Part shown: positions 14,335-32,363 of the stretch, piece after piece | How the letters are laid out: each line of letters begins with the position of its first letter | Numbering within the stretch: position 1 is the stretch's first letter | Assembly (NCBI RefSeq): GCF_000144695.1 | Contig: NC_014378.1 | Location: forward strand, 248,001 to 312,000 | Length of the DNA: 64,000 nucleotides | Reading direction: 5' to 3' | DNA from: Acetohalobium arabaticum DSM 5501 | GTDB lineage: Bacteria; Bacillota; Halanaerobiia; Halobacteroidales; Acetohalobiaceae | Notes under the pieces: generated by a model | The model's input: only the letters and a program-made list of their open reading frames with translations | Told to the model about the DNA's origin: nothing | Database searches by the model: none | Program-made: the position numbers and the translations under genes

Positions 14335-14590
14335 AGTAATAAAATAGAGTTATTCTACTTTAAAAATAGGTAGTGATGATTAAAGTACTATAACTAAAAT
14401 TAAATTATTTACTAAATTATCGATAATTATTAGTGAAGAGTAATGATTAGTGAGCAATTAGTAGTTAGTAAGGACTGGTGCTTTAAAGTTAAATTTAAAG
14501 TAGCAGTGGTTACTAACTTTCATTAGCTATCACTAGATTAGCCTACTAGGATTAGTTGATGATTAGTAGCCAAAACCACTTCCTATCAGC
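14335..14590 (+). promoter_or_regulatory. csrA-flagellin intergenic region with candidate sigma-28 promoter and long imperfect hairpin
   Basis: TAAA at 14401-14404, a 14-bp gap, then ATCGATAA at 14419-14426 resembles the sigma-28 pattern TAAA-N15-GCCGATAA. Further on, GTTAGTAAGGACTGGTGC pairs with GCAGTGGTTACTAAC-type sequence (about 14464-14519) around TTTAAA arms, giving a long imperfect hairpin in the leader. No gene is seen here. Confidence 0.45.
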
Positions 14591-14627
14591 AAGGAGGCTG
14601 AAGGAAGTAAAACTATTATCAAGGAGG
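14591..14627 (+). promoter_or_regulatory. CsrA-type GGA sites in the flagellin leader
   Basis: Three AAGGA motifs: AAGGAGG 14591-14597, AAGGAAG 14601-14607 and AAGGAGG 14621-14627. The last is the ribosome site, 9 nt before the flagellin ATG. This matches the known Bacillus hag arrangement in which CsrA occupies an upstream site and the ribosome site together. Confidence 0.6.
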
Positions 14628-14636
14628 AAGATAAAA

Positions 14637-16073
14637 ATGAGAATTAATACTAATGTGACGGCTTTGAATGCTTATAACCAATTAAAATCTACTAATGAAA
14701 ACATGAGTAAATCTTTAGAAAGATTATCTTCTGGGAAGAGAATCAATAGTGCTGCTGATGATGCTGCTGGCTTGGCTATCAGTGAAAAGATGAAGGGGCA
14801 GATGAATGGTCTGGCTCAGGCACAGCGAAATGCTCAGGACAGCATCTCTATGATTCAGACTGCTGAAGGTGCTTTACAGGAAACTCATAGTATTTTGCAG
14901 CGGATGCGTGAACTTTCTGTTCAGGCCGGTAATGATACTAACACGGCTGATGACCGGGCAGAGATTCAGGAAGAGATCGATCAGTTGAAGGATGAAATTG
15001 ATAATATTGGTGAAACTACTGAGTTTAACACCAAGAAGTTGTTAAATGGTGGAGCTGGATTGGAAACGACTACAAATACTGAAACTGTTGATGGAACAGA
15101 TAAAGAGTGGGCTAGTGTACAAGGTGGGTCTGCAGATACGGAAACTGGAACTATTGATATTACTTCTGCTACTGCTGCTAGTGCTGGAAGTTATGACCTT
15201 ACTGTAAGTACTGGTGAAGGTACTAATGAGTCAATTACTGTTAATGGGAATACAGTTAATTATGATGCTTCTGCTTCTAGTGCCACAGTATCTGCAAATA
15301 ATTTGCAAACTGTGCTTAATGACAACGCTGATAAGTTAGGTATTGAAGAAGTTGAAGATGCTGATGTTACTAGTAGTGGAACTATGACAATTGAGAATGC
15401 AGCTATTGGTTCAGCGAATGAACTTGATATTTCTGCTGGTTCTACTGCTGTAGCAACTAGTACTGCTATTGATGTAAGTAATGAAGGCACGGATATTGAT
15501 ATTACGGCTGGTACTAATGGTGGTAATGCTACTGCAATAGCTGATACAGACTATGTTTCTAGTGGGAATTCAATTGAAGTTACTGGAGGTAAATTTGAAG
15601 GATTAAAATTAGAGTTTGATGGAGAAGAGATGAGTACTACTGCAGGTACTAATAAATTTAATGTTGAAATTGAATCCAATGGTGTAGTACAATCACAGAT
15701 TGGTGCTAATGATGGACAGAATATGAGTATTTCTATTAATGATATGAGATCAGAGGCATTAGGAGTCAGTAATCTTGATGTAACAAGTGCTGAGAATGCT
15801 AATGAGGCTATATCAACATTGGATGATGCTATTCAGAAGGTATCCAGTGAGCGTTCTAAGCTCGGTGCTAAGCAGAATCGATTAGAACATATTACAAATA
15901 ATCTCAGTGCTGCCGAAGAAAACTTAACTGCAGCTAATTCTCGAATTCGTGATGTAGATATGGCCAGCGAGATGATGCAGATGAGTAAGACGAGAATTCT
16001 TTCTCAGGCTGGTACTGCTATGTTAGCTCAGGCTAATCAGAAATCACAGGGAGTAATGCAGTTACTTGGATAA
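14637..16073 (+). CDS. hag: Flagellin (filament protein), normal size class
   Basis: Major filament subunit of 478 residues. The N-terminal D0/D1 region is canonical (MRINTNVTALNAYNQLKST, SLERLSSGKRINSAADDAAG) and the C-terminal region closes it (KQNRLEHITNNLSAAEENLT, ending SQGVMQLLG). Residues about 140-395 are a Thr/Ser/Ala/Asn-rich, acidic variable domain, likely surface exposed and glycosylated given the downstream genes. The frame is open from ATG 14556, but ATG 14637 is the real start: it has AAGGAGG 9 nt upstream and gives the conserved flagellin N-terminus. Confidence 0.95.
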   Translation: MRINTNVTALNAYNQLKSTNENMSKSLERLSSGKRINSAADDAAGLAISEKMKGQMNGLAQAQRNAQDSISMIQTAEGALQETHSILQRMRELSVQAGNDTNTADDRAEIQEEIDQLKDEIDNIGETTEFNTKKLLNGGAGLETTTNTETVDGTDKEWASVQGGSADTETGTIDITSATAASAGSYDLTVSTGEGTNESITVNGNTVNYDASASSATVSANNLQTVLNDNADKLGIEEVEDADVTSSGTMTIENAAIGSANELDISAGSTAVATSTAIDVSNEGTDIDITAGTNGGNATAIADTDYVSSGNSIEVTGGKFEGLKLEFDGEEMSTTAGTNKFNVEIESNGVVQSQIGANDGQNMSISINDMRSEALGVSNLDVTSAENANEAISTLDDAIQKVSSERSKLGAKQNRLEHITNNLSAAEENLTAANSRIRDVDMASEMMQMSKTRILSQAGTAMLAQANQKSQGVMQLLG

Positions 16074-16184: not shown

Positions 16185-17930
16185 ATGGCTGATTTGAGTT
16201 TGGATGGTTTGGCCAGTGGAATGCCGACTGAAAATACGATTAATCAGATATTAAATGCAGAGTATGGAACAAAGTTGCAGAATTTAAATCAGGAAAAGAG
16301 TAATTTGGAAACACAAAAGAATGCCTGGCGGGATGTTAATTCTAGAATAGATAAGTTAGAACAAAAGGTAACACAGTTAAAATTGTCTTCTACTTTTGCG
16401 TCTAACAAGACAACAAGTAGTGATGAAGAAGTAGTTACTGCTACTTCTACTACAGATGCTACTGAAGGCACTTATGATATAGAGGTAGTAAAGAAAGCTC
16501 TAGCTCATAGAATAGCTGGAACAGATCAGTCTGCTAAAATCGATAGTGCTACTTCTGCTAATAGTGAGGATATTTCTGAGATAGCTATGCAGAATGGGGG
16601 AGAATATACAGCAACCCAGTTTAGTTCAGGGGAAACAATTGATGGTACAACTTATGATTATGGTTTGAAAAATAGTGATGGAAATATTGTTGCTGTGAGT
16701 ACTAACCAACAAGTCTATACTTCCTTAGATAAGGCAACTGCCGAAGGGGATTTGGGCAGTTTAACTTCTTCAAATTTAGGTGAGAGTTATGATTTTGGTT
16801 CTGCGATAGCTAATAATACAGTGGTAAGGATGGATGGGACTGGGGCTAATGAAAAGAATAATTTAGCAACTGCAATTATGATGAATGATGATACAGTAAC
16901 TATTAATGGTACTGATATTAGTGTGTCTGCGACTGATACTCTTGAAGATTTTGTGATTGCAGTTAATGATAGCGATGCTGGTGTTAACGCTAGTACTGTA
17001 TCTAATCGGTTAATACTAGAAAGTAATGAAACGGGAACAGATAATGAAATTACTTTATCTGATAATGGGAATAGTAATGGACAGCATTTATTGGAAGACT
17101 TAGGTCTTATCGACGGTAGTGATAATATTATTACTAGTAATGATGGTTATCAAGCGGCACAAAATGCTGAAGTAACTGTTAATGGGATTACTGGCATTAC
17201 AAGTCAGGATAATACTATTGATGAAGCAGTAAGTAATGTTACTTTTGAAATTAGTGATGCTGCTCAACCTTCACAAGAGACAGAAACAGCTACTGTTACT
17301 GTCAGTCAAGATACTGAGAAAGCTACTTCTAAAATTCAGGCTTTTGTTGACCAATATAATAGTGTGCAGGATTTTATGAATAAAAAGCTTGATTATAATT
17401 CAGAGACTGAGGAAAGCGGTGCATTACAAGGGGATGGAACCTTAATGCGTCTACAGTCTAGGTTACGGCAGTTAGTAATGGAACAAGTAGATAGCGGTAA
17501 TGAATATAATAGTTTGATGTCAGTTGGAATTAGTAGTAAGAAAAATGGAACACTTGAATTTGATTCAGGCAAATTCGAAACTGCTTTGAAAGAAAAGCCG
17601 GAGCAGGTGAAAAATCTCTTTACTAGTGAAGAAGATGATGGTTCTTTTGATGGGGTAGCTACTAAATTAGATAGCTATTTAGATATGGTGATCCAAACTA
17701 ATATAGGAGTAATTCCTGGGAAAATAGATTCTTATGAAAGAATGATGGAGGATGTGGAGCAAAGTATTGCATCTACAAATGATCGATTGGAGCAGGAGAG
17801 AGAAAGATTAACTCAGGAGTTTACATCTATGGAGCAATCTATTTCAGAAATGAATAATCAGATGAGTTGGATGCAGAGTCAACTGGGCAGCATGGGCGGA
17901 ACAAGTAATATGTTAAGTTCTATGATGTAA
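16185..17930 (+). CDS. fliD: Flagellar filament cap protein FliD
   Basis: 581-residue cap protein that sits at the filament tip and folds incoming flagellin. The family N-terminus is present (DLSLDGLASGMPTENTINQI), followed by coiled-coil segments, a Thr/Ser-rich exposed middle, and a C-terminal FliD domain (NLFTSEEDDGSFDGVATKLD and the terminal coiled coil ending MSWMQSQLGSM). Start ATG 16185 follows GGAGGTGA. Length is only modestly larger than usual. It is followed 30 bp later by the glycosyltransferase block. Confidence 0.92.
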   Translation: MADLSLDGLASGMPTENTINQILNAEYGTKLQNLNQEKSNLETQKNAWRDVNSRIDKLEQKVTQLKLSSTFASNKTTSSDEEVVTATSTTDATEGTYDIEVVKKALAHRIAGTDQSAKIDSATSANSEDISEIAMQNGGEYTATQFSSGETIDGTTYDYGLKNSDGNIVAVSTNQQVYTSLDKATAEGDLGSLTSSNLGESYDFGSAIANNTVVRMDGTGANEKNNLATAIMMNDDTVTINGTDISVSATDTLEDFVIAVNDSDAGVNASTVSNRLILESNETGTDNEITLSDNGNSNGQHLLEDLGLIDGSDNIITSNDGYQAAQNAEVTVNGITGITSQDNTIDEAVSNVTFEISDAAQPSQETETATVTVSQDTEKATSKIQAFVDQYNSVQDFMNKKLDYNSETEESGALQGDGTLMRLQSRLRQLVMEQVDSGNEYNSLMSVGISSKKNGTLEFDSGKFETALKEKPEQVKNLFTSEEDDGSFDGVATKLDSYLDMVIQTNIGVIPGKIDSYERMMEDVEQSIASTNDRLEQERERLTQEFTSMEQSISEMNNQMSWMQSQLGSMGGTSNMLSSMM

Positions 17931-17960: not shown

Positions 17961-20264
17961 ATGAAGTTAAGTATAGGAATGATGGTTAAAAATGAAGCAA
18001 AGTATCTTGAAGAATGCTTAAAGAGTTTACAGCCAATTAGAGAAGCGATAGAATCTGAATTAGTTATAGTAGATACTGGATCTGACGATGGGACAGTAGA
18101 AATAGCCAAACAGTTTACTGATAAAGTTTATTTTCATGAATGGAATGATCATTTTTCGGAAATGAGGAATACAGTTATAAGTTATACTAAGGGGGATTGG
18201 TACTTTTCTATTGATGGAGATGAAGTAGTTGAGAATCCAGAGGGATTCATTCATTTCTTTCAATCTGGTAAATATAAAGAATTTAATTCAGCTCTAGTTA
18301 CTCAGAAAAATTATATTAACAAAGAAAAGACTAACGTTTCAAATTTATTAGTACCACGAGTTTTCAAAAATGATGAAGATTTTCATTTTGAAGGAGCAAT
18401 TCATAATCAACCTGTAGTAAAGAAACCAGTATGTACATTGGATACCGTTTTAGAACATTATGGTTATTTACAAAATGATCAAGAATTAATGGAAAGAAAA
18501 TTTAATAGAACTAGTAATATATTAAAAAGAGAGTTAGAAAATGATCCGGAAAATATTTATTATAGATTCCAATTAGCAAATAGTTATGGGATGCATGGGG
18601 ATTATGATAAAGCTATAGAGAATATTGAAAAGACTTATGAGGTAGTAAATCAAAAGAAAACTGATTTAAGCTCTTATTTATATATACATAATCTGATGGC
18701 TAAAATGTATCTTGGTCAGAATAGGTTAAGTGAGGCAGAAAAGATATGTAAGGAAGCTATTGGCCTTGCAAAAGGTTATTATTCTGATTTATATTATTAT
18801 CTTGGTAAAGCTCAATTAAAATTAAATAAAAATGAAGAAGCAATAGAAAATTTTAAAATTTATCTGGATATAGTTGAAAAAGATGGGCCTTTAGAACAAA
18901 TAAATGATACATCTTTTATTTTTTATACAGAGGATAATTTAGAGCAGGCATATCTATTTTTATTAGTCTTATATGAAAGAATAGAAGACTACGAACAGAT
19001 TATTAATGTTAGTTATAAGATAAAGAGTAAAGATAATATAAAACAAGTTATTCCTAAGGCTATAAAAGCGTGTGTTGAAACAGATAGATTTAATGAAATA
19101 AAAAATTATTATCAGAATAAAATATTGACTGAATTTAAAGATTTATCTGGTAAATATCTAGCTGAATTAGAGTCTAAAATGATGACTATGAATAAAGAGA
19201 AAAAGTATAATATTTTTAATGTTTTTTCAGTAGAAAAAAGTAGTTATGGAATCCTTAATAAAGTAAGGCTGCGGGAACTAAAAGATAATAAATTAGTTAA
19301 TCTGATAACAAAAATGAATTTTAATTCTTTACCTAACTATTATGGTGATATAATTTATTATTTGTTACAGAACAAATATTTTTTAGTAGATGTCTGTGGA
19401 GTTATACAAGAACAAAGATTAAATAAATTTTTGCAGTATGTACTGGATGATAATAAAGAAGAAAATATAAGTTCTGTTCTTTATGAATACTTAGAAAATA
19501 GATTTAATGTTGAAACTTTAAGTCATCTTAATATCAATAAAGTACTAGAACGATATATATTAGTGTTAGATGATCTCAATAATGAGAAGTATTTTAATAT
19601 TTTTCGAAGGTACATTGAGGATGGTACTAAATATATAAAAATGGTATATAGTGATGAAATAATTCAGAATGAAATGACTCAGTTTGTTAAAAATGATGAG
19701 GAAGTTTTCTTATTATATATTTATCTTGCTAATCAACATAAAGAAAATAATCCCAAAAAATATGTTCGATATTTACGAAAAAGTTTAGATGCTTTTCCAG
19801 CGATGAAAAAAGGTATTCAAATGTTGTTAGAAAGATTTGAGAAAAAAGATACTTTAAATGGTGGATTAGAGAACTATCAAGAAAAGATTAAAAATAATAT
19901 AGATAAATTAATTAATAATGGTAATTTAAAAAAAGCAGAAGAATTAATTAATGAGTATGAAGATACTATAGAAGATGATGCTGAAATTTATTCAATGAAG
20001 TCTGTTATTGCAATTATGAAAAATAATTTTAAAAAAGCTAAAAAAATTATAAAGAATGGACTAGAAATTGAGCCTGATAATTTTGATTTGCTTTATAATT
20101 TGGGATATGTATATGAAGAGTTGAATCAATATAATCAAGCTAAGGATTATTATTTACAAGCAAAAAATTCTATTAATTCTTCAAAGCAAAAGGATGATTT
20201 AGCTCAAGCATTGAAGCGAATAGAAGAAAAAACAAAAGAGGTGGAAGAAAAGTATGGACTATAA
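17961..20264 (+). CDS. Glycosyltransferase family 2 fused to TPR repeats
   Basis: 767-residue protein, probably adding sugar to flagellin. Residues about 1-220 are a GT-A fold: LSIGMMVKNEAKYLEECL, VIVDTGSDDGT and the metal-binding FSIDGDE (DxD-type). The rest contains TPR-like helices (for example NIYYRFQLANSYGMHGDYDKA and DNFDLLYNLGYVYEELNQY) with a less clear helical middle. The gene is strikingly A+T rich (AAA, AAT and TTA codons dominate) compared with flanking flagellar genes, which suggests acquisition by transfer. It overlaps the next gene by 11 bp. Confidence 0.85.
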   Translation: MKLSIGMMVKNEAKYLEECLKSLQPIREAIESELVIVDTGSDDGTVEIAKQFTDKVYFHEWNDHFSEMRNTVISYTKGDWYFSIDGDEVVENPEGFIHFFQSGKYKEFNSALVTQKNYINKEKTNVSNLLVPRVFKNDEDFHFEGAIHNQPVVKKPVCTLDTVLEHYGYLQNDQELMERKFNRTSNILKRELENDPENIYYRFQLANSYGMHGDYDKAIENIEKTYEVVNQKKTDLSSYLYIHNLMAKMYLGQNRLSEAEKICKEAIGLAKGYYSDLYYYLGKAQLKLNKNEEAIENFKIYLDIVEKDGPLEQINDTSFIFYTEDNLEQAYLFLLVLYERIEDYEQIINVSYKIKSKDNIKQVIPKAIKACVETDRFNEIKNYYQNKILTEFKDLSGKYLAELESKMMTMNKEKKYNIFNVFSVEKSSYGILNKVRLRELKDNKLVNLITKMNFNSLPNYYGDIIYYLLQNKYFLVDVCGVIQEQRLNKFLQYVLDDNKEENISSVLYEYLENRFNVETLSHLNINKVLERYILVLDDLNNEKYFNIFRRYIEDGTKYIKMVYSDEIIQNEMTQFVKNDEEVFLLYIYLANQHKENNPKKYVRYLRKSLDAFPAMKKGIQMLLERFEKKDTLNGGLENYQEKIKNNIDKLINNGNLKKAEELINEYEDTIEDDAEIYSMKSVIAIMKNNFKKAKKIIKNGLEIEPDNFDLLYNLGYVYEELNQYNQAKDYYLQAKNSINSSKQKDDLAQALKRIEEKTKEVEEKYGL

Positions 20265-22620
20265 CAAAATTAATAAATTAATAAACCAAGGACAATTTGA
20301 TCAGGCAGAAAAAGAGATAAGAAAAATAAAAGAAGAGACTAAGAAAAATAATTTTTTTGGATTATTAAATTATCATAATAATAAATTTGAAATAGCTAGA
20401 AATTATTTTGAAAAAGGATTGGAAAGAAATCCAATGGATATGGAGCTCTTGTATAATTATGGATGTTGTTTGAAGGATTTAGGAGAAGATATGGAAGCTT
20501 GGCGTTATTTTATGAGAATTTCTAATAAAGATTATAAAGTTTATGACCATTTAGGGGATATTGAATATCAAAATAGAAGTAAAGTTGCTGCAATTAAATT
20601 TTATAAAAAAGCTTTTGAATTGAGTCAATTCAAGGAAATAGAAACTAAATATAATGAAGTAAGAAACTTAATGAAAAAGAATACTAAAATCGTATTTCTT
20701 ACGGTACCTGGTATAGGCTGGGGATTTATTGATAATAAAGTAGAAGCTTTGTCTTTGATTTATGATGTAAAGTTTGTAGTTTCAACTGATGGAGAAGAAA
20801 TAAAAGAAGCAGTTGAATGGGCGGATATTGTTTGGTTAGAATGGGCTAATGAAATGGCAGTTCACGTAACAAATAATGTTTCATCTATAAAAGATAAAAA
20901 AGTTATTTGTAGGTTGCATGGTTATGAAGTGTTTAGTGATTATGGTAAAAAAATAAATTTTAATTATATAGATAAAATGATTTTTGTAGCTGAACATAAG
21001 AAAGAGCTTCTTATTGAAAAATATGGAGAATTAATAGATGAAGAAAAAATTGAAGTTATAAGAAATGGTGTAGATTTAGATCAATTCTATATACCAGAAA
21101 ATAAAAAGAAAAATAAGAAGATAGCTTTAGTAGGAAATATTAATTATAGAAAAGGTTTATTATTATTATTAAATCACTTTCATGAGTTATTAAAAGTAGA
21201 TAATGAATATAAATTATTTATTCGAGGGGAACATCAAGATTTCAGATATAAAATGGCTATAGAGACTATGATTGAAGAGTTAGGATTAGAAGATAATATA
21301 GAATTTATATTTGAAAGAGTTGATGACATAAATAAATGGTTAGAAGATAAATCATATATTATTTCTGCTTCTGTTGAGGAATCATTTCATTATGCATTAG
21401 CAGAGGGAATGGCAGCTGGCTTACAGCCGGTTATACATGCTTGGCGAGAAAGTAGAGATATATGGCCTGGTAAATATATATTTAAGGAAACCGAAGAATT
21501 TAAAAAGCTTTTTTTGGAAAGAGAATTAACTCCATTAGAATATCGTGAGTACATTGAAAATAATTATTCTTTGGAAAATCAATTATACGAAGTAGAAAAA
21601 ATAATAAGTAAATTATTAGAAACAAAAACTACTAAAGGCATTAAACAAGATTATAATTCACTAAATAAAGTTAATCGAACAGATGCTGTACAACTTATTA
21701 ATAATTTTATTCCATATTCTGAGCAATTTTTTAGTAATATATCTTTTGATAAATTGAATTTAGTAACTTTAAAAGCGGAAAAAATACAGGAAAAATTATT
21801 TCATTTAGAAATGTTACTGGCAAATAAAAACAATAATATATTTATTCAAAATGTTATTTTTAATAAAAATGTTAATTCACTTCAAATTCCAAATAATTAT
21901 AAAAAAATTAAGCCATTAATTAAAAAGATAGTTAATGGATTAGATTTTAATTTTGAACAAGATATTAAAACATATATATATGATGAAGATTTAAAGAATC
22001 ATATAGAAAGTAATTTTAAAAATTATTTATGGGAGAGGGCATATCCTGGGACACAATTTATGAGATTTCATGGAGAATTAAGAATAGTTTGTTATTATAC
22101 ATTTGCAGAAGACTTAGTGAAAAATAAAAAAGTTTTAGAGGCTGCTTCTGGATTTGGTTATGGAGCTGCTTATTTTTCAAAATATGCTAAGGAGGTAACT
22201 GCTTTAGATATTCTTGAAGAAAACTTAGATTGGGGAAAGAAAACTTTTGGGTTCAACAATGTGAATTGGAAACAAGGAGATGTAACTAATTTACCTTTTG
22301 AAGATAATAGTTTTGATATTTATACATCTTATGAAACAATTGAACATTTAAAAAGTAAAGATATAATAAGTTACTTAAAGGAAGCTAAGAGGGTTGTTAA
22401 AGATAAGGGTATCTTTTTATTATCTACTCCTAATAAAAGAGTTCGAGAAGGAAAAATAGATAATCCATTTCACATTTCCGAAATGTATTTTAAAGAATTT
22501 AATGAGTTTTTACAAGAGGTTTTTGAAGAAATTGAATATTATTCGTATCAGGAATTTAAAATTCATCCAGGAGTAAAGGAAAATAGTGCAGAAAATTTTA
22601 TTGCCATATGTAAAGTATAA
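20254..22620 (+). CDS. TPR / GT-B glycosyltransferase / SAM-dependent methyltransferase fusion
   Basis: 788-residue multidomain enzyme. Residues about 1-135 are TPR helices. Residues about 145-450 resemble a family 4 glycosyltransferase (IEVIRNGVDLDQFY, ALVGNINYRKGLLLLL, and the acceptor/donor segment SVEESFHYALAEGMAAGLQP). Residues about 600-788 are a class I methyltransferase (VLEAASGFGYGAAYFSKYAK for SAM, then VTALDI and FDIYTSYETIEHL). Such fusions add and methylate a sugar. Same A+T-rich composition as its neighbour, with an 11-bp overlap implying translational coupling. The acceptor is probably flagellin, by context. Confidence 0.82.
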   Translation: MDYNKINKLINQGQFDQAEKEIRKIKEETKKNNFFGLLNYHNNKFEIARNYFEKGLERNPMDMELLYNYGCCLKDLGEDMEAWRYFMRISNKDYKVYDHLGDIEYQNRSKVAAIKFYKKAFELSQFKEIETKYNEVRNLMKKNTKIVFLTVPGIGWGFIDNKVEALSLIYDVKFVVSTDGEEIKEAVEWADIVWLEWANEMAVHVTNNVSSIKDKKVICRLHGYEVFSDYGKKINFNYIDKMIFVAEHKKELLIEKYGELIDEEKIEVIRNGVDLDQFYIPENKKKNKKIALVGNINYRKGLLLLLNHFHELLKVDNEYKLFIRGEHQDFRYKMAIETMIEELGLEDNIEFIFERVDDINKWLEDKSYIISASVEESFHYALAEGMAAGLQPVIHAWRESRDIWPGKYIFKETEEFKKLFLERELTPLEYREYIENNYSLENQLYEVEKIISKLLETKTTKGIKQDYNSLNKVNRTDAVQLINNFIPYSEQFFSNISFDKLNLVTLKAEKIQEKLFHLEMLLANKNNNIFIQNVIFNKNVNSLQIPNNYKKIKPLIKKIVNGLDFNFEQDIKTYIYDEDLKNHIESNFKNYLWERAYPGTQFMRFHGELRIVCYYTFAEDLVKNKKVLEAASGFGYGAAYFSKYAKEVTALDILEENLDWGKKTFGFNNVNWKQGDVTNLPFEDNSFDIYTSYETIEHLKSKDIISYLKEAKRVVKDKGIFLLSTPNKRVREGKIDNPFHISEMYFKEFNEFLQEVFEEIEYYSYQEFKIHPGVKENSAENFIAICKV

Positions 22621-22647: not shown

Positions 22648-24351
22648 ATGGAGTTAAAAATTGATTTACCTGATAAAAAAATTAGTGAAGAACAATTAGA
22701 AAAGATTTTAATAGATTTTACTAAAAAGATGTATATAGAAGGGTTTATGAAGAATAGTAACATTAATATTGGGAATTTAAAATTGAGATTTATAGTTTCT
22801 ACAGGGAGGACAGGGACAAAGTTTTTTGCTAAATTTTTTAATTCTTTAGATAAGATTATATCTTATCACGAACCATACCCGAATTTATTTGGACTTAGTA
22901 AAGACTTTGTAATTAATAGAATTAATTCTCAGGAAGTAATTAACACCTTTTTAGTTAATAGAGCTTATTATTTAAATCAAGCTCGAAGAATGAAATTTAA
23001 TTATTATATTGAAAGTAATTCAGGAGGGTTGTGGGGGATAATACCAGTCCTTGGAAAACAATTACCAAATTATAAAATATTACATATAATTAGAGATGGT
23101 AGAGAATGGGTCAGATCTGTCATGAATAGGACTCTCTTTAGAGATAAAGATCCTTTAGATGATATTCGTTTTAAGGCTAATGATTTACCTAATAGCCCTT
23201 ATTTTAGCAGATGGGAAGAAATGAGTAGATTTGAAAAAGCATGTTGGAGTTGGGTAAAAAAGAATAAAATAATGAAAAGAGATGTTTTGCAGGATAAAAA
23301 TTGTCTTACTTTAAAATTCGAAAAATTATTTGATAAAAATGATTATGAGAAAATATTAGTAGAATTATTAAATTTTTTTGAGATAAAAGTAACGGATGAA
23401 ATAATAGATAAATATAGAAAGCATTTAGAATCTCCAGTTAATGAAAATATAAATGATTCTTTTCCGGGATTTGAAGATTGGACTCAAGAACAAAAGAGAC
23501 AATTCAAGAATATTTGTGGGGATTTGATGGAATATTATGGGTATGAAATGAGTGGGATCGAATATAATAAGCCAAAAATTAATACCCAGAAAAAGAAAAA
23601 CTTAATTGTAACCGGGATACCTAAAAGTGGAACAACTTTATTCTCTTATTTAATAAGTTCTTTACCTAATGCTATTTGTCTTGATGAAATATTTTATAAT
23701 ATAAATGAACTGCCTGATAAATTTTCTGAAATTAGAAAAAGATTAATATTAAAGAAACCAATTCCTAATAGTTTTAAAGAAAATGGTGAATTGTCTACGA
23801 ATAAAAGAGGAGAGAAGCGAGAAAAAAAGTTAAAAGTTATTGAAAAGGATTTTGATAAAAATGCAATTGTTGGATCGAAAGTTAATGTTCCTTATTTATT
23901 TCAAATAGAAAAGTTAATAAGTTATGGATATAAAATTATTGCAATAGTTCGAAATCCTCTATATACTATTGGTAGTTGGAGGACATGGATTTCACAAATA
24001 GGTAAGCTAGTACCGGAGACTAGAGTTACAGAGGAAGATATGCATGAACGATATAAAGATTTTCCTTTTAAATCAGATATAGCTGTAGAAAGACAAGCAG
24101 AGGTATGGCAATTTTTAGCATCAATTATATGGGATCATAGACAACATATTAATATAATTACTTATGAACAGCTTACAGAAAACACCAAAGAAACTTTAAA
24201 AGATATTTGTTCTTATTTAAACTTAGATATGCCAAATGAAAAGTTTGAATTAGATAATATGAATGAAGAGGAAAGGTATTCTAATTTAGATGCAATAGAA
24301 AAAGCAGTTAAAAAATATGCACCTATTAGAACTGTTTTTGGCTATGATTAA
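22648..24351 (+). CDS. Tandem sulfotransferase-domain protein
   Basis: 567-residue protein with two sulfotransferase-like halves. The first has a PAPS 5'-phosphosulfate loop FIVSTGRTGTKFF (about 48-60) and a 3'-phosphate motif IIRDGREWVRSV (about 146-158). The second has GIPKSGTTLFSYL (about 324-336) and AIVRNPLYTIGSW (about 431-443). The second half matches the canonical PKSGTT and RxPxxxxxS motifs best. The family transfers sulfate from PAPS to hydroxyls, for example on sugars. Position after two glycosyltransferases suggests sulfation of a flagellar glycan (inference). Same A+T-rich block. Confidence 0.8.
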   Translation: MELKIDLPDKKISEEQLEKILIDFTKKMYIEGFMKNSNINIGNLKLRFIVSTGRTGTKFFAKFFNSLDKIISYHEPYPNLFGLSKDFVINRINSQEVINTFLVNRAYYLNQARRMKFNYYIESNSGGLWGIIPVLGKQLPNYKILHIIRDGREWVRSVMNRTLFRDKDPLDDIRFKANDLPNSPYFSRWEEMSRFEKACWSWVKKNKIMKRDVLQDKNCLTLKFEKLFDKNDYEKILVELLNFFEIKVTDEIIDKYRKHLESPVNENINDSFPGFEDWTQEQKRQFKNICGDLMEYYGYEMSGIEYNKPKINTQKKKNLIVTGIPKSGTTLFSYLISSLPNAICLDEIFYNINELPDKFSEIRKRLILKKPIPNSFKENGELSTNKRGEKREKKLKVIEKDFDKNAIVGSKVNVPYLFQIEKLISYGYKIIAIVRNPLYTIGSWRTWISQIGKLVPETRVTEEDMHERYKDFPFKSDIAVERQAEVWQFLASIIWDHRQHINIITYEQLTENTKETLKDICSYLNLDMPNEKFELDNMNEEERYSNLDAIEKAVKKYAPIRTVFGYD

Positions 24352-24438: not shown

Positions 24439-24894
24439 ATGACTAACAATCCTTATCAAAAATATAAAAACACCCAAGTTGAAACTGCAAGTCAAGAAAA
24501 ATTACTTTTAATGCTTTATGATGGTGCAATTAAGTTTCTTAAGCAGGCTATCAAAGGAGTAGAGGAAAATGATTATGAAGCAGCAAACAATTATTTAGTC
24601 CGCACTCAGGATATTATTCATGAATTGATGGCTACTTTGGATATGGAAAAGGGAGGAGAAATTGCTAGAAATTTAGAGAGTTTATATGATTATATGAACC
24701 GTAGGTTAATAGAAGCTAATGTTAATAAAGATATTGAACCTATGGAAGAAGTGCGTGATATGTTGGCAGAATTAAGGGAAACATGGCAGGAAGCAATCAA
24801 AAAAGTAAAGCAGAATAAAGCTGATCAGCCTTCAAAAGATGAAACTAATAAGAGGCCGCAGAATCTGTCCGGAGGGATTAATATTGAAGGATAA
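24439..24894 (+). CDS. fliS: Flagellar export chaperone FliS
   Basis: 151-residue chaperone that keeps flagellin monomers unpolymerised before export. The family pattern is clear: NPYQKYKNTQVETASQEKLL, LMLYDGAIKFLKQAI and a Tyr/Leu-rich last helix followed by a charged tail. Preceded by AAAGGAGG. It is in the usual place downstream of fliD, but displaced 6.5 kb by the glycosyltransferase block. Confidence 0.92.
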   Translation: MTNNPYQKYKNTQVETASQEKLLLMLYDGAIKFLKQAIKGVEENDYEAANNYLVRTQDIIHELMATLDMEKGGEIARNLESLYDYMNRRLIEANVNKDIEPMEEVRDMLAELRETWQEAIKKVKQNKADQPSKDETNKRPQNLSGGINIEG

Positions 24895-25396
24895 CAATGA
24901 TAATTTGAGTATTGAAAATTTAATAAAAAAACTTACAAATAATTACGAAGAAGAATTAAATTACTATAAAGAAATGTTGAAATTAACTAATCAACAACAG
25001 CAGGTTATTGAAGATGATGAGTGGCAGAGTTTAAATCAACTTGTGAGTAGGAAACGAGAATTAATGAAGAAAGTTGATGAATTGGAAAAACAGATCCTGT
25101 CTTATCAAGAGAAAATTTCGGCTGAATTAAATCTGCAGATCGGTGATACTTTTTACCCTGAATTATGTAATAAGGACTTACCGGGAACGAAAAAGTTGAA
25201 GCAAGTTCTAATAAATGTTTATCGGCTTATGCAGCAGATAGGTGAATTAGATAAAGTAAATCAAGCTAGAATGGAAGAAAAGAAAAAGCAAAAGCAGCAG
25301 GAATTAAATGATGTTAACCAAGGTTTAAGTGTTAACCGCGCTTATAGTGGAAAATCCGATAGTTCTGAAGGCAAATTCATTGATCAGAATAAGTAA
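24884..25396 (+). CDS. FlgN/FliT-like coiled-coil flagellar chaperone candidate
   Basis: 170-residue charged helical protein (from TTG 24884, which has GGAGGG 7 nt upstream and overlaps the fliS stop by 11 bp). Long heptad-rich helices (about 5-75 and 120-150) and a KKKQKQQE-type tail resemble FliT or FlgN. In Firmicutes FliT commonly follows FliS, and FliT chaperones FliD. No diagnostic motif separates FliT from FlgN, so the subtype is left open. Confidence 0.65.
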   Translation: MKDNNDNLSIENLIKKLTNNYEEELNYYKEMLKLTNQQQQVIEDDEWQSLNQLVSRKRELMKKVDELEKQILSYQEKISAELNLQIGDTFYPELCNKDLPGTKKLKQVLINVYRLMQQIGELDKVNQARMEEKKKQKQQELNDVNQGLSVNRAYSGKSDSSEGKFIDQNK

Positions 25397-25419: not shown

Positions 25420-25995
25420 GTGGAAGTATACATAAATGAGGACCAACTAGAAGGAGTATCAGGTGATATTGAAGAAATCATAAGTAATGTTCATTCTAGA
25501 TTGGATAGAGAAATTGTAGAACAGATTTATTTAAATGATATGAGAGTTAATGAAGATTTACTATTGAGTAGTGATTTTGAGTTTGATGAAGAGTCTATAT
25601 TAAAATTTGAAACTAAAGAAGTTAATCAATTAATAGAAGAAACTTTATCGGAGATTGATATGTATTTACCTAAGCTTAAAGAGGGAGTTATAAATACTGC
25701 TCAATTATTTCGACAGGAAAAACTAGAAAAGGGTAGAGCAAAATATGAGTCCTGTCTTGAAGGCTTGGAATGGTATATTAATGTATTACAAAATATTTTA
25801 TCACTACTTGATAGTGAAGAATTAACAAAGCAGGGAGAAGAAATATTGATAGAGTTTAACAAAAGGTTAAGAGATGTAATGAAGAAAATGCAAATTAAAG
25901 ATTTTGATTCAGCGGCTGATTTATTAGAGGACGAAATTGTTGATTATATTGGGCAGTTTAATGAACTAAATGATAAACTGACTAATGTAAAATAA
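25420..25995 (+). CDS. Uncharacterised acidic helical protein in the fliS-flaG interval
   Basis: 191-residue protein not recognised. Very acidic; beta-like N-terminal 60 residues (MEVYINEDQLEG, then EESILKFETKEVNQLIEETL) followed by long amphipathic helices. Start is GTG 25420 after AAGGAGG. It sits between two chaperone-like genes and flaG and shares their spacing, so a flagellar role is likely. No membrane segment, signal peptide or catalytic motif is seen. Confidence 0.6.
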   Translation: MEVYINEDQLEGVSGDIEEIISNVHSRLDREIVEQIYLNDMRVNEDLLLSSDFEFDEESILKFETKEVNQLIEETLSEIDMYLPKLKEGVINTAQLFRQEKLEKGRAKYESCLEGLEWYINVLQNILSLLDSEELTKQGEEILIEFNKRLRDVMKKMQIKDFDSAADLLEDEIVDYIGQFNELNDKLTNVK

Positions 25996-26049: not shown

Positions 26050-26424
26050 TTGAAAGTTTCTGAAGTTAGCAACAATCAACCAACTAGTTCAGAACAATCG
26101 AAAACAAGGCAGATTGAAAGTACTTCACAGAAAGATAAGGTTGATCTTCAGGCTGGGGAAGAAGAAACTAAAGAACAGAAGACAGATGAGAAGAAAGTAA
26201 CTGAAGAAAATGTTAAAGATGGCATAGAGAAATTAAATGAAACAGTACAGACCTTTCATGAAGAATTAAAATTTGAAATGCATAAAGAAAGTGAGCGGAT
26301 GATGACTAAAGTAGTAAATACAGAAAAGCATGAAGTAATTAAAGAAATACCACCAAAAGAAGTTCTCGATATGATTGGTCGAATCAAAGATATGGTTGGT
26401 CTTATATTGGATGAGAAGATATAA
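26050..26424 (+). CDS. flaG: FlaG family flagellar protein
   Basis: 124-residue FlaG protein. The N-terminal half is Ser/Gln/Lys-rich and disordered; the C-terminal half has the family core (VQTFHEELKFEMHKESERMM, VNTEKHEVIKEIPPKEVLDM, ending MIGRIKDMVGLILD). FlaG influences filament length in other bacteria; mechanism unclear. Start is TTG 26050 after GGGGGTGA. Followed by a terminator. Confidence 0.88.
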   Translation: MKVSEVSNNQPTSSEQSKTRQIESTSQKDKVDLQAGEEETKEQKTDEKKVTEENVKDGIEKLNETVQTFHEELKFEMHKESERMMTKVVNTEKHEVIKEIPPKEVLDMIGRIKDMVGLILDEKI

Positions 26425-26445
26425 CTTCATATTTAACTTATTCTA

Positions 26446-26470
26446 ATCGGGAATTCTCCCGGTTTTTCTT
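26446..26470 (+). terminator. terminator after flaG
   Basis: TCGGGAATTCTCCCGG followed by TTTTTCTTTT. Short but G+C-rich stem; closes the fliS-flaG transcription unit. Confidence 0.75.
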
Positions 26471-26498
26471 TTATTATGATAGTCTGGAGGAGTCTAAA

Positions 26499-27515
26499 TT
26501 GCATACTAAATCATTGAATGTAGCAGCGATAAACCAGAACCTTGATTGGAACTTTGCAGTCCATTATGGAGTAGTAGAGTATCTAGCTGGCTATGACCCA
26601 GCCGAAGCTTGGAATGTAAGAGGAATTTCCGGCCGCGGCGGTTCTTCACAGAAGTATTTTGACTACCGCCAGGAGAAGGTAGTGGAATTAGAAGACCAGT
26701 TGAAGAACAGTCAAGAGCTCCAAAATAAATTAGATGACTTTTTAGAGGAATGTTTTACTCTATTCAATGCCTTCAGAGATGAAAATCAGCAGATGATTGA
26801 CCAATATCTGGATAAAGAATTCTACTTTATCTTGGGTGCTGATCGAACCGGCGGAACCTTTATGTTAAAAGAGCTAAGTCGAGCACTGGATTGGTCATAT
26901 CAGAACTTACATATGTCTATTCTCCATGAACATATGCCGGACTTTGATATTGAAGAGCCTGATGCTATTGGCTGGCGTAAGCCGGATAATTACTATTATC
27001 TCCTATTTCAGATAGTCCAGTTCTTAGTCTACATCAACCGCGTAGTACCGGAGGAAGAGTATGTAGTCAAGAAGACTCGATTCAGCAAGTGTATGCAGCT
27101 AATAGACTACATCTTTGGTGATAAAGCCTACTACATAGTGACAGTTAGACATCCAGCGGCCATTAATGCTTCCCGGATGGAGACAGGAGCAACAGGAGAA
27201 GTAGTAGATGATGTCAAGCGGGAAGGAAAGCGCACACTTTATCTCTGGCAGACTGTCTATAGAGAGATAGTTAGAGATGGCCAGCCCGAGGGCTTAATTC
27301 TGCCGATCCAGTTTGGCTCAGGGATGGATGAATTTTTGGCCGACTTCTTTGCTCACCATAATGCCTCCGTAGAACCTGATAAGTGTCATATAACTGAGAG
27401 GGATTATGATTATGACTTCTGGACCAGCGATTATGTGGTAAATTCCATGGAATGGGTAAGGATGCTCTGGCAGCTTCATGAGCTTGAATTTCCGGTGCCG
27501 GAGGAGATATTGTAA
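26499..27515 (+). CDS. Sulfotransferase-like P-loop protein
   Basis: 338-residue protein with a sulfotransferase-type nucleotide loop FILGADRTGGTFMLKEL (about 107-123) and a second motif TVRHPAAINASRME (about 222-235), which resembles the RxPxxxxxS 3'-phosphate motif. The rest is Trp/Tyr-rich and not recognised. Base composition is clearly higher in G+C (GCC, CGC and CAG codons) than the block before it, so the two sulfotransferase genes probably have different histories. Start TTG 26499 follows GGAGGAG. Located between flaG and the giant flagellin, hence perhaps specific to that filament protein (inference). Confidence 0.65.
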   Translation: MHTKSLNVAAINQNLDWNFAVHYGVVEYLAGYDPAEAWNVRGISGRGGSSQKYFDYRQEKVVELEDQLKNSQELQNKLDDFLEECFTLFNAFRDENQQMIDQYLDKEFYFILGADRTGGTFMLKELSRALDWSYQNLHMSILHEHMPDFDIEEPDAIGWRKPDNYYYLLFQIVQFLVYINRVVPEEEYVVKKTRFSKCMQLIDYIFGDKAYYIVTVRHPAAINASRMETGATGEVVDDVKREGKRTLYLWQTVYREIVRDGQPEGLILPIQFGSGMDEFLADFFAHHNASVEPDKCHITERDYDYDFWTSDYVVNSMEWVRMLWQLHELEFPVPEEIL

Positions 27516-27774: not shown

Positions 27775-27902
27775 TCATATCTGTTAATAAATGATAAACA
27801 GGAAAATTATACTGCTGAGATAAAGGTTATTATATAAATTTTGTCTAAATTATATTAAAAAGGAAGTAGAATTTTGGATTGTTGGTAAGGGAGGCGACAA
27901 AT

Positions 27903-30900
27903 TTGAGGGTATTAAATAATGCAAATGCTCTTAAAGCCTTAAATCAATTAAAAAAGAATGATAAAAAACGCACTAAATCATTAAAGAAATTATCTTCTGG
28001 AAAGAGGATAGATACCGCAGCAGATGACGCAGCAGGGATGGCAATTTCTCAAAAAATGAGAGCTGAGATAAATGGTTTACAGCAGGCACAGGAGAATATT
28101 CAGAATGGAACTTCTCTATTACAGACTGCCGAAGGAGCAATGGACAGCATTCAGGATATTCTTCACCGTATGAAAGAGCTTACTATTCAGGGAGCTAATG
28201 ATACATTAAGTGAGACAGATAAAGAGAGTATTCAGGCTGAACTTGAAGAATTAAGGTCTAAAGCTGGCAGAATTGCTAATGAGACGAAGTTTAATGGAAT
28301 GCCGCTGATTGACGGGACCTTTAGTCAGAAACAAGAACAGGTTGCAGGAAATTCTAGTCGTGACTTTAATGTTCCCGATGACGGAACTACTGTAACTCGT
28401 CAGATTGAGATTGGGGACTTTATGGTGGACTTTAACTTTACTAAATTATCCGAAGAAGAGGTTAGAATTGATGTTAAGCATGAAGATAAACTGCTAGCTA
28501 CTAAGACTATTACTCAGGACCCGCTAAAGTGGGAGAAGAATCTAGGCGGTAGTTTCTATGACAGTGCCCAGGATATAACTAAGACCAGTGATGGAGGCTA
28601 TGTAGTAATTGGACGAACTGAATCTATAGATGAAGATCTAGAGGACAAGAAATCTAGCTTTGATAGCGATATGTGGGCTGTAAAGCTCGATGAAGATAAG
28701 AATATAAAGTGGCAGACAACCTTAGGAGGCAGTGATTTTGATGAGGGAAGTACAGTTCAAGAAACCAGCAGTGGAGATATAATAATTTCCGGAACTGAAA
28801 CCTCTAATGATGGAGATAAAGATATTTCAGTAGCAAAGTTAAGTGCAGATGGAGATGTGAAATTTACTAAACCGTTTGGCGGTGGAAAAGATCAAGGGAA
28901 GAGCGTTTATCCTACTCAGGACGGTGGATATATTTTAGCCGGTGATTCTGATTCTACTGATAAAGATGATGATATGCTGTTGATGAAGCTGGACCAGAAT
29001 GGTGAATTCCAGTGGGAGAAGTATTTAGACCATGGTGATCTATTTGACGAGGTTAATGATATTAAACAGACAGCTGATGACGGTTATATAGTAGCTGGCA
29101 GTAATAATAATTATGGAACGGCTGGGATGTATAAACTTGATAGCAGCGGTAATCAGGAATGGCATAAGAATTACAGCGGTAACAGCATAGAAAGTGTAGA
29201 GGAATTATCCGGGGGAGATTATGTCTTTGCTGGCCGAGAAGGCAGCGGTGGCGGTAGTGATATGATGATTGTTAAAACAGAGTCTAACGGAGATCAGGTC
29301 TGGAAGAGGTCTTTAGATAATTTAGGTGATTTTGATGAAGGAGTCAGCATAGAAATAACTGATGATGGTAAGTATGTTGTTTCCGGAACTACTACCTCCA
29401 GTAATGAAGATAAAGATATAGCAGCAGTAAAGTTAGACCAGGATGGAAATAAAATTTGGGATACCTTTAATCAGGGCTTTGGTGGAAATGGTGACGAAGG
29501 GACAGAGGTTACAGTAACTAATGATAATGGTTATATAGTAACTAATCCTGACAATAATAGTAAGGATAATTTAGCTATTAAGTTTAATGCACGCGGAGCC
29601 TTTGAATGGGAGACTACCATTGGAGGTAGTAATGATCAGATTAATAATCTTAAGGATACTGGCAGCGGCTATTTAGCCACTGGAAAATCCACCTCTACCG
29701 GTGAGAAGTGGGTTGCTGAGTTAGATTCAGATGGACAGGTTAATGTCAAAAAAGATATAACAGATAGTGCTGATGTAGAAAAGATAACTGATCTGCAGAA
29801 ATTAAACAGCGGAGGCTATGCATTATCAGGAAGAAAGGATGAGAGCGGAAATAAAGAAGGTTGGGTAGCTAAGTTAGGTAGTGATCTGAGTACTACTAAT
29901 ACTGCTACTTTGGGTGGTAGCAGCTTTGATCAAATAAATAGTATTCAACAGACTAGTAATGGTTTTTTAGTAGCAGGTGAAAGTAAATCTAATGATGGAG
30001 ATCTGAGTAATAATTACGGCAGCAGTGATGTCTGGGCAGCTGGATTACAGGATAATTTTAGTTTAGATTGGCAGAAGAACTTTGGGGGTAGTGAATATGA
30101 TGCAGCAAGTAGTATTAGAAAAACTAGTGATGGTGGATATCTGATAGCAGGAGAAACTAAATCTACTGATCATGATTTAAGCAGCGAAAAGAGTGGTACC
30201 AACCGAGATGGTTGGGTTATTAAATTAGATGATACTAAAAGTATTGACTGGCAGAAGAACTTAGGTGGAGCAATAGAAGACCGGTTTACAGATATCAGTG
30301 TTGATGAAGCTAATGATGAATATATAGTTGCGGGGACTAGAGAATCTATATCTGATTATGATAAAGAAGCCTGGGCAGCTAAATTTGCTGAAGATGGAAC
30401 GGAAAAATGGAATAAAACTTTTAGTGATAGGAATTTTAATCAAGGAATTGATTTGAAAAAGACTACCGATGGATATATTCTATCCGGAGTAGATGATGAA
30501 GATAATAAGGTTATGATTAAGCTTGATGCTGATGGAAATAAGGATTGGGAAAATGAATTAAATGACAAGGATGACTCAGCTAGTAGTATCCGCCAGACTA
30601 GTGATGGAGGTTATATAGTAGCTGGAACTAAGACTAGTAATTTTGGCGACAAAGATGGTACCATTATTAAATTGGATGCTGACGGTAATAAAGAATGGGA
30701 ACAGTTAGTAGGAAATGAATATTCTCAGGAAGAGATAAGTAATTTAGAAATTGAACAAGATGGTAGCGGCGATTATATTATTTCTGGAACTAAAAATAAT
30801 CAGTTGTGGGCGACTAAATTAAATAGTGACGGTACTAAAAAGTGGAGCCAGACTTATGATGGATTTGAGGCAACTGATATCAAAGAAGATAATAATGGGA

Positions 30901-32363
30901 ACTATATCATTTCCGGAACTAAGACTTCTACTGATGGCGATGAAGATATGACGATTCTTAATGTTGATCCTACGGATGGAAGTAAGAATTGGCAGCATAA
31001 CTTTGGCGGTGGTGATGACTGGGTAGGTAATGTCCAGGAGACCAGTGATGGTGGATATATTCTATCAGGAACTAAGACTTCTAATGATGGAGATAAGGAT
31101 GCTTTGGTTCTTAAACTAGATTCTACAGGTGATATAAGCTGGGAACAAAAGATAAAAGAAAATAATTTGGATGAAGAAGGAATTACTGCAACTGAAAGTG
31201 ATGAAGGCGGCTATATTCTGTCTGCAACTAAAGAGACAGTAGATGGAGATACAGATGTCTGGATTAGAAAGTTAAATGATGATGGAAGTAAAGACTGGGA
31301 CAAGGCCTTCGGTGGAGATAATGATGAAACAGCAGGAAATATTCAGCAGACTGATGATGGAGGTTATATAGTTTCAGGAACTCAGGTTACAGATGATGGT
31401 GATAAAGATGTATATGCTGTCAAGTTAGATGAAACTGGAACTAAAGAATGGGATACCTCCACAGTAAGCATCGGCGGCAGTGGTGATGAAGAGGCCAATC
31501 ATATTCAGCAGACAATAGATGGCGGATATATTATAGCAGGCCAGAGTGATTCTACTGATATACCGAATAATTCTAATCATGGTGGAGATGATCTGCTGCT
31601 TGCTAAGCTTGATAAGGATGGTAATTTAGAATGGCAGGACTTATTGGGAGGTAGCGGAGATGATGGAGCTAGTTCTGTAGAGGAAATTTCTGATGGGAAC
31701 TATATAATTAGTGGGAGAACAACATCTTCAGATGGAGATGTGGATAATAATTATGGTAGTAGCGATATGTGGGTGGTTAATTATTCTAAAGGAAGAAGTG
31801 AAGTCAGTCTTAACCCAACAGAAGAGGCAAGCAAAAGGGCTAAGTATGGCCATGGAACCTCCTGGCTTGATTTGGACGAGGTTAATATTGACTTCAACTG
31901 GAAAGACTTTAATGTAGAAGAGATTGATGCTCAGGGAGAACAGAGGACCGAAGCCAACTTTGTGGTTCAGGATGATGCTAAAGCAGATGAATCCAATCAC
32001 CTCTGGGCAGAGATTGATAATCTAACTTTAGAAGAACTGGGATTAGATGATTTGCCTAAAGTGGCCTCAGCATCCGAAGAGAAAATCCAGACTTCTTTAG
32101 AAATGATGGATGAAGCAAACCAGAAGGTCAGCACAGCCAGGGCTAAAATAGGTTCTTATCAGAATCGCCTGGAACATACTAGCCAAAATGTAACTAATTA
32201 TAGAACTAATTTAATGGAATCTGAATCTAGAATTGAGGATGCTGATATGGCTCAAGAAATGATGAAGTTAACTAAAAGACAGATTATCAGTCAAGTTTCA
32301 CAGACTATGTTGGCTCAGATGAATAATATAGATAATGGTGTATTGCAGCTGCTTTCTGTGTAG
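27903..32363 (+). CDS. Giant flagellin with about 21 beta-propeller-type repeats in the variable domain
   Basis: 1486-residue flagellin. N-terminus (LRVLNNANALKALNQLKK, LKKLSSGKRIDTAADDAAG, about 1-150) and C-terminus (KIGSYQNRLEHTSQNVTNYR...MAQEMMKLTKRQIISQVSQT, last 120) are normal D0/D1 helices. Residues about 210-1296 hold 21 blocks of 45-60 residues with the pattern W-x4-GG...TxDGGYIVxGTxTSxDGDxDxWxxKLDxxGxxxW, each like one four-stranded propeller blade. Start: TTG 27903 has AAGGGAGG 8 nt upstream and gives the flagellin N-terminus. It ends in TAG and is followed by a terminator and a small coiled-coil gene. Confidence 0.92.
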   Translation: MRVLNNANALKALNQLKKNDKKRTKSLKKLSSGKRIDTAADDAAGMAISQKMRAEINGLQQAQENIQNGTSLLQTAEGAMDSIQDILHRMKELTIQGANDTLSETDKESIQAELEELRSKAGRIANETKFNGMPLIDGTFSQKQEQVAGNSSRDFNVPDDGTTVTRQIEIGDFMVDFNFTKLSEEEVRIDVKHEDKLLATKTITQDPLKWEKNLGGSFYDSAQDITKTSDGGYVVIGRTESIDEDLEDKKSSFDSDMWAVKLDEDKNIKWQTTLGGSDFDEGSTVQETSSGDIIISGTETSNDGDKDISVAKLSADGDVKFTKPFGGGKDQGKSVYPTQDGGYILAGDSDSTDKDDDMLLMKLDQNGEFQWEKYLDHGDLFDEVNDIKQTADDGYIVAGSNNNYGTAGMYKLDSSGNQEWHKNYSGNSIESVEELSGGDYVFAGREGSGGGSDMMIVKTESNGDQVWKRSLDNLGDFDEGVSIEITDDGKYVVSGTTTSSNEDKDIAAVKLDQDGNKIWDTFNQGFGGNGDEGTEVTVTNDNGYIVTNPDNNSKDNLAIKFNARGAFEWETTIGGSNDQINNLKDTGSGYLATGKSTSTGEKWVAELDSDGQVNVKKDITDSADVEKITDLQKLNSGGYALSGRKDESGNKEGWVAKLGSDLSTTNTATLGGSSFDQINSIQQTSNGFLVAGESKSNDGDLSNNYGSSDVWAAGLQDNFSLDWQKNFGGSEYDAASSIRKTSDGGYLIAGETKSTDHDLSSEKSGTNRDGWVIKLDDTKSIDWQKNLGGAIEDRFTDISVDEANDEYIVAGTRESISDYDKEAWAAKFAEDGTEKWNKTFSDRNFNQGIDLKKTTDGYILSGVDDEDNKVMIKLDADGNKDWENELNDKDDSASSIRQTSDGGYIVAGTKTSNFGDKDGTIIKLDADGNKEWEQLVGNEYSQEEISNLEIEQDGSGDYIISGTKNNQLWATKLNSDGTKKWSQTYDGFEATDIKEDNNGNYIISGTKTSTDGDEDMTILNVDPTDGSKNWQHNFGGGDDWVGNVQETSDGGYILSGTKTSNDGDKDALVLKLDSTGDISWEQKIKENNLDEEGITATESDEGGYILSATKETVDGDTDVWIRKLNDDGSKDWDKAFGGDNDETAGNIQQTDDGGYIVSGTQVTDDGDKDVYAVKLDETGTKEWDTSTVSIGGSGDEEANHIQQTIDGGYIIAGQSDSTDIPNNSNHGGDDLLLAKLDKDGNLEWQDLLGGSGDDGASSVEEISDGNYIISGRTTSSDGDVDNNYGSSDMWVVNYSKGRSEVSLNPTEEASKRAKYGHGTSWLDLDEVNIDFNWKDFNVEEIDAQGEQRTEANFVVQDDAKADESNHLWAEIDNLTLEELGLDDLPKVASASEEKIQTSLEMMDEANQKVSTARAKIGSYQNRLEHTSQNVTNYRTNLMESESRIEDADMAQEMMKLTKRQIISQVSQTMLAQMNNIDNGVLQLLSV
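28530..31790 (+). repeat. 21 tandem coding repeats (about 150 bp each) in the giant flagellin
   Basis: Each unit starts near a TGG (Trp) codon and carries GATGGAGGCTATAT-like sequence for DGGYI and GGAGATAAAGAT-like sequence for DGDKD. Units 1, 10, 11, 20 and 21 have longer loops. Nucleotide identity between units is low, so the array is old or under diversifying selection, not a recent expansion. Confidence 0.85.

Follow-up and report, generated by a model that had tools for sequence, protein, structure and literature searches.

A tandem sulfotransferase encoded in a flagellin glycosylation locus of Acetohalobium arabaticum, with a possible role in flagellar glycan sulfation

The window analyzed here is a 64,000-nucleotide stretch of the Acetohalobium arabaticum DSM 5501 genome (NC_014378.1, positions 248,001 to 312,000 of the forward strand), and all window coordinates count its first letter as position 1. 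Its features of interest are collected in Table 1. Between the TPR-GT4-methyltransferase gene and fliS, on the same strand as both, lies an ORF whose product consists of two consecutive sulfotransferase (ST) domains. Each domain has its own pair of PAPS-binding motifs. The ORF runs without interruption from its ATG to its stop codon, and an AGGAG-type site lies directly 5' of the ATG. The tandem ST is thus encoded within a flagellin glycosylation locus, in which the GT2-TPR protein is the probable first flagellin glycosyltransferase.

Table 1. Features of the flagellar region of the window and motifs of the tandem ST.
Feature	Coordinates	Strand	Evidence or remark
Flagellin, TTG start as listed	14556..16073	+	ORF list, Pfam
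fliD	16185..17930	+	Pfam
GT2-TPR glycosyltransferase	17961..20264	+	Pfam
TPR-GT4-methyltransferase	20254..22620	+	Pfam; 11-base overlap with the preceding GT2-TPR gene
Tandem ST, 567 aa	22648..24351	+	ORF, Pfam, profile without window sequences, models
Tandem ST halves: N, residues 1-305; C, residues 306-567			
N half 5'-phosphosulfate loop STGRTGTKFF, residues 51-60	22798..22827	+	
N half E75 in HEP, candidate catalytic base	22870..22872	+	predicted role
N half 3'-phosphate site R149-x7-S157	23092..23118	+	
C half 5'-phosphosulfate loop PKSGTTLF, residues 325-332	23620..23643	+	
C half 3'-phosphate site R435-x7-S443	23950..23976	+	
fliS, flagellin chaperone	24439..24894	+	Pfam
flgN-like	24839..25396	+	Pfam
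191-aa ORF	25420..25995	+	without significant Pfam family
flaG, TTG start	26050..26424	+	
Terminator-like hairpin and T run, 3' of flaG	26445..26464	+	
Third, diverged ST-like protein	26499..27515	+	motifs ADRTGGTF and R217-x7-S225
Giant flagellin, 1494 aa, repeats in variable region	27879..32363	+	

The genes from fliD to fliS are closely packed, with successive gaps of 30, -11, 27 and 87 bases; the tandem ST gene has the 27-base gap upstream and the 87-base gap before fliS. No terminator-like site falls between genes of the same-strand run from fliD to flaG. Because terminator-like sites in the region were at the level of shuffled sequence (3 versus 3.5, the two besides the site 3' of flaG lying inside genes) and promoter-like matches were no commoner than in shuffles, we only infer that this run is cotranscribed. 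The true start of the upstream flagellin is probably downstream of the listed TTG, because residue 30 is the first one covered by its N-terminal Pfam match.

Several other features of the region deserve mention. ORFs of 191 and 201 residues resembling the one that follows the flgN-like gene were found by eye, unaligned, near fliS in the congener (genome G001, below) and in genome G389 (L135 16042-16617 and L155 12868-13473). These ORFs of about 190-200 residues had no significant Pfam family where scanned, and they look like an unnamed flagellar family. A 65-codon ORF at 27577-27774 contains an in-frame TAG and, with the TAG read through, matched PF14070 (YjfB_motility) at 6.6e-6, its score of 26.5 bits falling below the cut-off of 27. 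A. arabaticum uses pyrrolysine at TAG, and this codon could be a pyrrolysine codon or the mark of a broken gene. In the giant flagellin, N- and C-terminal flagellin cores flank approximately 1,250 residues with TSDGGYIVAG-type repeats, which resemble SBBP beta-propeller proteins (a match to NF047494 at 1.5e-21 that stays under the cut-off). Flagellins of more than 1000 residues have been described (PMC6248924).

The preliminary description had read the tandem protein as a doublet from its two pairs of motifs, and both pairs are present. In an alignment of 20 sequences, R149 and S157 of the N half were the sole invariant columns, and R54, G56, T57 and E75 were nearly invariant. When the C half was aligned with 19 distant relatives, G328, S443 and E507 were invariant and the R435 column held Arg in 19 of 20 rows. 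The candidate catalytic Glu of the C half could be E347, judged by motif, or E354, judged by alignment.

Pfam, whose cut-offs are curation thresholds, placed the C half above the line for both PF00685 (1.7e-9, 37.9 bits, cut-off 22) and PF13469 (2.7e-9, 38 bits, cut-off 27). The N half alone fell below both curated cut-offs (PF13469, 1.6e-4 and 22.4 bits against 27; PF00685, 2.9e-4 and 20.8 bits against 22). Two single-domain paralogues at 2.27 Mb in its own genome, which surpass both the PF13469 and PF00685 cut-offs, share 32% and 38% identity with it. Across its closer single-domain relatives, identity ranges from 30% to 41%, the top value being reached in other phyla. An iterated profile started from the C half recruited both halves and is circular, so we relied on an independent profile. 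Its 138 ORFs came from elsewhere, leaving out the window and its relatives' flagellar loci, with the exception that one seed stretch (Catenovulum L055) does contain a flagellin. This profile detected both halves, the N half at 1.9e-75 and the C half at 2.9e-17, against 0.014 for the best reversed-sequence match. By homology and predicted fold, the N half is a member of the ST superfamily even though it scores under the Pfam cut-off.

Other searches returned little. Among 398 genomes, the C half matched only itself. A single-protein scan of genome contigs with the tandem ST found no relatives, a plasmid search gave no match, and a phage search gave one match of 22% identity to an unannotated phage. 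The best match in a PDB sequence search had an E-value of only 0.022, and phmmer matches to TPST were at 0.17 or worse.

We used AlphaFold2 to model the whole chain with 19 relatives. The N half was mostly predicted with pLDDT above 90 over residues 41-304, and the C half was poor. Modeled alone with its 19 distant relatives, the C half reached a mean pLDDT of 63.8 and a pTM of 0.61, which is low to moderate confidence. VIA-align compared the N half model best with TPST1 (Z 17.4, 227 residues, rmsd 3.5) and TPST2 (Z 17.1) among the matches listed, all of which were sulfotransferases or ST-domain proteins; the fold match to TPST is generic to STs. For the C half model, Z was 12.8 to 3-OST-1 over 209 residues (rmsd 4.7), and TPST, at 12.5, was level with it. 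Each of the 50 matches listed was a sulfotransferase or an ST-containing protein. Foldseek ranked TPST1/2 first for both models. An ST fold is therefore predicted for the N half and, with moderate confidence, for the C half. The possibility that one half is not a sulfotransferase was ruled out by the profile, motifs and fold of both halves, and the doublet reading survives.

The two halves did not group together in a tree, where the C half formed a long branch of 2.73 changes per column. Because the halves do not group, the protein seems to have arisen by joining two unlike STs and not by a recent duplication, although the long C branch calls for caution. The C half may be decaying or specialized, given that long branch and its lack of a close relative in 398 genomes. 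The tandem architecture is not unique. Doublets of 477 residues (G002:C41, locus L158, from a genome of the same family) and 517 residues (G197:C45, locus L150) likewise have two ST domains per chain. They belong to other subfamilies than the Acetohalobium ORF, and each combines different ST subfamilies in its halves. Their clusters contain glycosyltransferases but gave no match to flagellin, FliD or FliS in the stretch, whereas the Acetohalobium ORF sits in a flagellar run. In L158 (6643-18886), several small HIPKTGGTTL-type proteins lie beside the tandem ST and are possibly another sulfotransferase class.

The A. arabaticum genome (2,469,596 bases in one contig) encodes the genes expected for PAPS supply. 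A PF01583 search found a canonical stand-alone APS kinase (CysC) at 2.16 Mb (6.9e-69), two weaker matches in proteins of 605 and 630 residues with an EF-Tu-type GTPase domain, and one further marginal match (1.5e-4). By their sequences, the 605- and 630-residue proteins are CysN with a degenerate CysC-like tail. Two CysD-like PF01507 proteins adjoin the CysN genes, and the one other PF01507 match reads as TilS by sequence. No PF01747-type ATP-sulfurylase was found in the genome, and no PAPS reductase, the remaining PF01507 match being TilS-like. The proposed check for PAPS synthesis thus turned up two CysD, two CysN and a stand-alone CysC gene, which rules out a lack of PAPS synthesis; as predicted from these genes, the organism can convert sulfate to PAPS via CysDN and CysC. 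Supply solely by the CysN-fused APS-kinase-like domains was rejected, since both have a degenerate loop (GEEDVGKKPTA) and the stand-alone CysC is canonical. With PAPS predicted to be made and no PAPS reductase found, the STs are therefore its evident users.

The CysD and tailed CysN genes occur as two near-identical copies, at L015 (2.06 Mb) and L016 (2.24 Mb). In L016, CysN is separated from CysD by two reverse-transcriptase-like ORFs, and a truncated-looking AprA-like ORF lies beside CysD in L015.

PF13469 occurs at four places in this genome, including the tandem ST, and there is a PF00685 protein in a cluster at 2.22 Mb. The other STs of the genome are mostly in polysaccharide clusters and would use PAPS too. 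Within this genome, the N half has its closest relatives in a polysaccharide cluster, where glycosyltransferase and heptosyltransferase-like ORFs were recognized by eye. The N half belongs to an ST family that also occurs in the genome's surface polysaccharide cluster.

A third ST-like ORF (26499..27515) lies 3' of the terminator-like site. It scored 0.0022 against PF13469 (18.7 bits, below the cut-off of 27) and, taken as the ORF 26415-27512, 1.3e-7 with the independent 138-ORF profile. Given its Pfam score, we call it ST-like only. Its GC3 is 0.457, compared with 0.15-0.31 in its neighbors, and in the 398 genomes it had one marginal match (7e-4), in another genome. This high GC3 and near lack of relatives suggest that it was probably acquired.

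Sulfotransferases had been described as uncommon in Clostridia, the class under which the genome paper lists Halanaerobiales, the order to which A. arabaticum belongs (PMC3035264). That fits our count of PF13469 in 27 of the 398 genomes of the phylum, for which the stretches we examined cover all PF13469 places except those of G340 and G204. We then asked how often STs occur near flagellar genes. Loci related to the N half lay beside flagellin in only 1 of 80 cases (Catenovulum agarivorans L055), where two ST-like ORFs are in a cluster ahead of flagellin. Our screen with FliS covered the class: 44 of 59 Halanaerobiia genomes had a FliS match, and 42 of these were used after dropping G412 (below cut-off) and G427 (a 52-residue fragment). 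One neighborhood was taken per genome, two each for G416 and G409, for a total of 44; several end at contig ends, the shortest at 4.1 kb. At E < 1e-5, an ST lay near fliS in 5 of the 42 genomes (that of the window, G001, G005, G006 and G389), and within the order in 4 of 13. A weak flag in G010 (3.1e-4) had no Pfam match at that place and was not counted. The 43 neighborhoods outside the window (714 kb) held 5 ST ORFs at 4 loci against 0.26-0.34 expected, a rough comparison in which the background (15-20 ST ORFs per 41.7 Mb) came from hand-counted PF13469 matches and rounded genome sizes, with a detector unlike that of the FliS screen.

The most informative of these loci is in the congener (G001), where a single ORF of 1058 residues joins a GT2-TPR protein to a C-terminal ST (PF13469, 2.7e-39). 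Its GT2-TPR part is 42% identical to that of the window over 761 aligned columns, and the fusion ORF is followed by a TPR-methyltransferase protein and then a second ST. No other single observation suggests as strongly as this fusion that the product of the flagellin glycosyltransferase is what the ST modifies. In G006 and G389, Pfam places an ST alongside Maf-type (PF01973) proteins; G005 has an ORF that looks similar to Maf-type by eye, and the loci of all three carry nonulosonate-type genes, judged by eye only. In a tree with long branches and unsure positions, the flagellar STs did not group, and their distribution required 3 changes or more, roughly as many as with shuffled labels. A common origin of the flagellar STs is unsupported, since the tree shows neither clustering nor a single recruitment. 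Repeated recruitment of STs to flagellar loci is possible.

A. arabaticum grows in the range of 10-25% NaCl. It has been described as having one to two subterminal flagella, although the genome paper's own images do not show them (PMC3035264). The closest known parallel is from the archaea. Sulfated archaellin glycans have been reported in Halobacterium salinarum since Wieland et al. 1985 (PMC6591318, PMC11980604). Mass spectrometry in a 2019 study, by contrast, found no sulfate on its archaellins (PMC6591318), and a 2025 paper reports that VNG1056C and VNG1057C sulfate two sugars of the archaellin N-glycan (PMC11980604). Like Acetohalobium, H. salinarum is a hypersaline organism with a swimming filament, and it has glycan sulfate reported there; two different STs act on two sugars of one glycan, and methylation of the glycan is also discussed (PMC11980604). 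The systems differ in that the H. salinarum one is archaeal, N-linked and encoded by two separate genes, whereas that of Acetohalobium is bacterial, presumably O-linked and cytosolic, and encoded as one fused chain. The preliminary description had not regarded sulfation of flagellar glycans as established. For bacteria, our searches of one open-access library found no report of sulfated flagellin; for archaella, such sulfation is known.

Bacterial STs of the PF13469/PF00685 type from polysaccharide clusters share the fold and PAPS motifs with the Acetohalobium protein (the 30-41% identity is to the N half), which unlike them is a fused doublet inside a flagellin glycosylation run. Human TPST1/2 have the closest solved fold to the N half among the matches listed, at about 16% identity. 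They are eukaryotic Golgi enzymes that act on tyrosine. Clostridioides difficile has a GT2-type glycosyltransferase beside its flagellin genes, followed by glycan-modifying enzymes, and its flagellin glycan cap is a phosphate-linked methyl-amino acid. Acetohalobium is like C. difficile in having a GT2-type gene beside flagellin, and unlike it in encoding STs. The enzyme class is known, and it is plausible that the fused form and the flagellar setting are new.

Taken together, we consider it likely that the ORF encodes a cytosolic tandem PAPS-dependent ST acting on the flagellin O-glycan of A. arabaticum. We infer both the ST activity and the flagellar glycan as its acceptor. Flagellin Ser and Thr residues would receive a first sugar in the cytosol from the GT2-TPR protein, GT4 would extend the glycan, and the fused methyltransferase would O-methylate it. 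The two ST domains would each move one PAPS sulfate to different glycan hydroxyls, before flagellin is handed over to export by its chaperone, FliS. In brine of 10-25% NaCl, the filament would then present a strongly anionic surface. We also lean toward a broader reading, in which flagellin-glycan sulfation recurs, so far unreported, in bacterial flagella, halophilic Halanaerobiia recruited different STs to their flagellin glycosylation islands (as a tandem fusion, as a GT2-TPR fusion, and as stand-alone genes beside Maf-type proteins), and the doublet is a two-step enzyme. Such sulfation in Halanaerobiia would parallel the sulfated archaella of haloarchaea.

One sub-case of this explanation, possible though doubtful, is that the N half alone is catalytic and the C half is inactive, regulatory or acceptor-binding. 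The long branch of the C half, its want of close relatives in the 398 genomes, its less confident model, and the two candidates for its catalytic Glu would all suit such a part, whereas its PAPS-site residues (PKSGTT, R435, S443 and E507) are intact and its scores exceed the Pfam cut-offs. A different possibility is that the enzyme sulfates lipopolysaccharide or another surface polysaccharide and is merely located among flagellar genes. We think this unlikely: the ORF has a glycosyltransferase gene on one side and fliS on the other, all on one strand, STs of different types recur in flagellin loci of other families, and the congener has the GT2-TPR::ST fusion. On the other side are the polysaccharide cluster that houses the closest same-genome relatives (by eye) and the similar location of most ST genes in the genome. 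The single flagellin-adjacent locus among the 80 related to the N half weighs against the flagellar-glycan reading itself, as do the other STs of the genome that would use PAPS.

It is very improbable that the protein is a tyrosylprotein sulfotransferase acting directly on flagellin tyrosines. In its favor, the N half resembles TPST1/2 most among the structural matches listed, and Foldseek ranks them first for both models, which makes a protein acceptor conceivable; the variable region of the giant flagellin also contains 34 tyrosines. Against this, sequence identity to TPST is low, the neighboring genes encode glycosyltransferases, and tyrosines are few in the main flagellin, which has 4, with 3 falling in a variable region that is 25.7% Ser+Thr.

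If sulfation of the flagellin glycan is correct, bacterial flagella would join archaella as sulfated filaments, and a possible role would be to keep highly charged surfaces apart in brine. The GT2-TPR::ST fusion and the tandem enzyme would then be tools to sulfate a protein-linked bacterial glycan. Should the acceptor instead be flagellin tyrosine, tyrosine sulfation would gain a new bacterial example. The proposed glycan sulfation also predicts other flagellins that would be worth examining by mass spectrometry.
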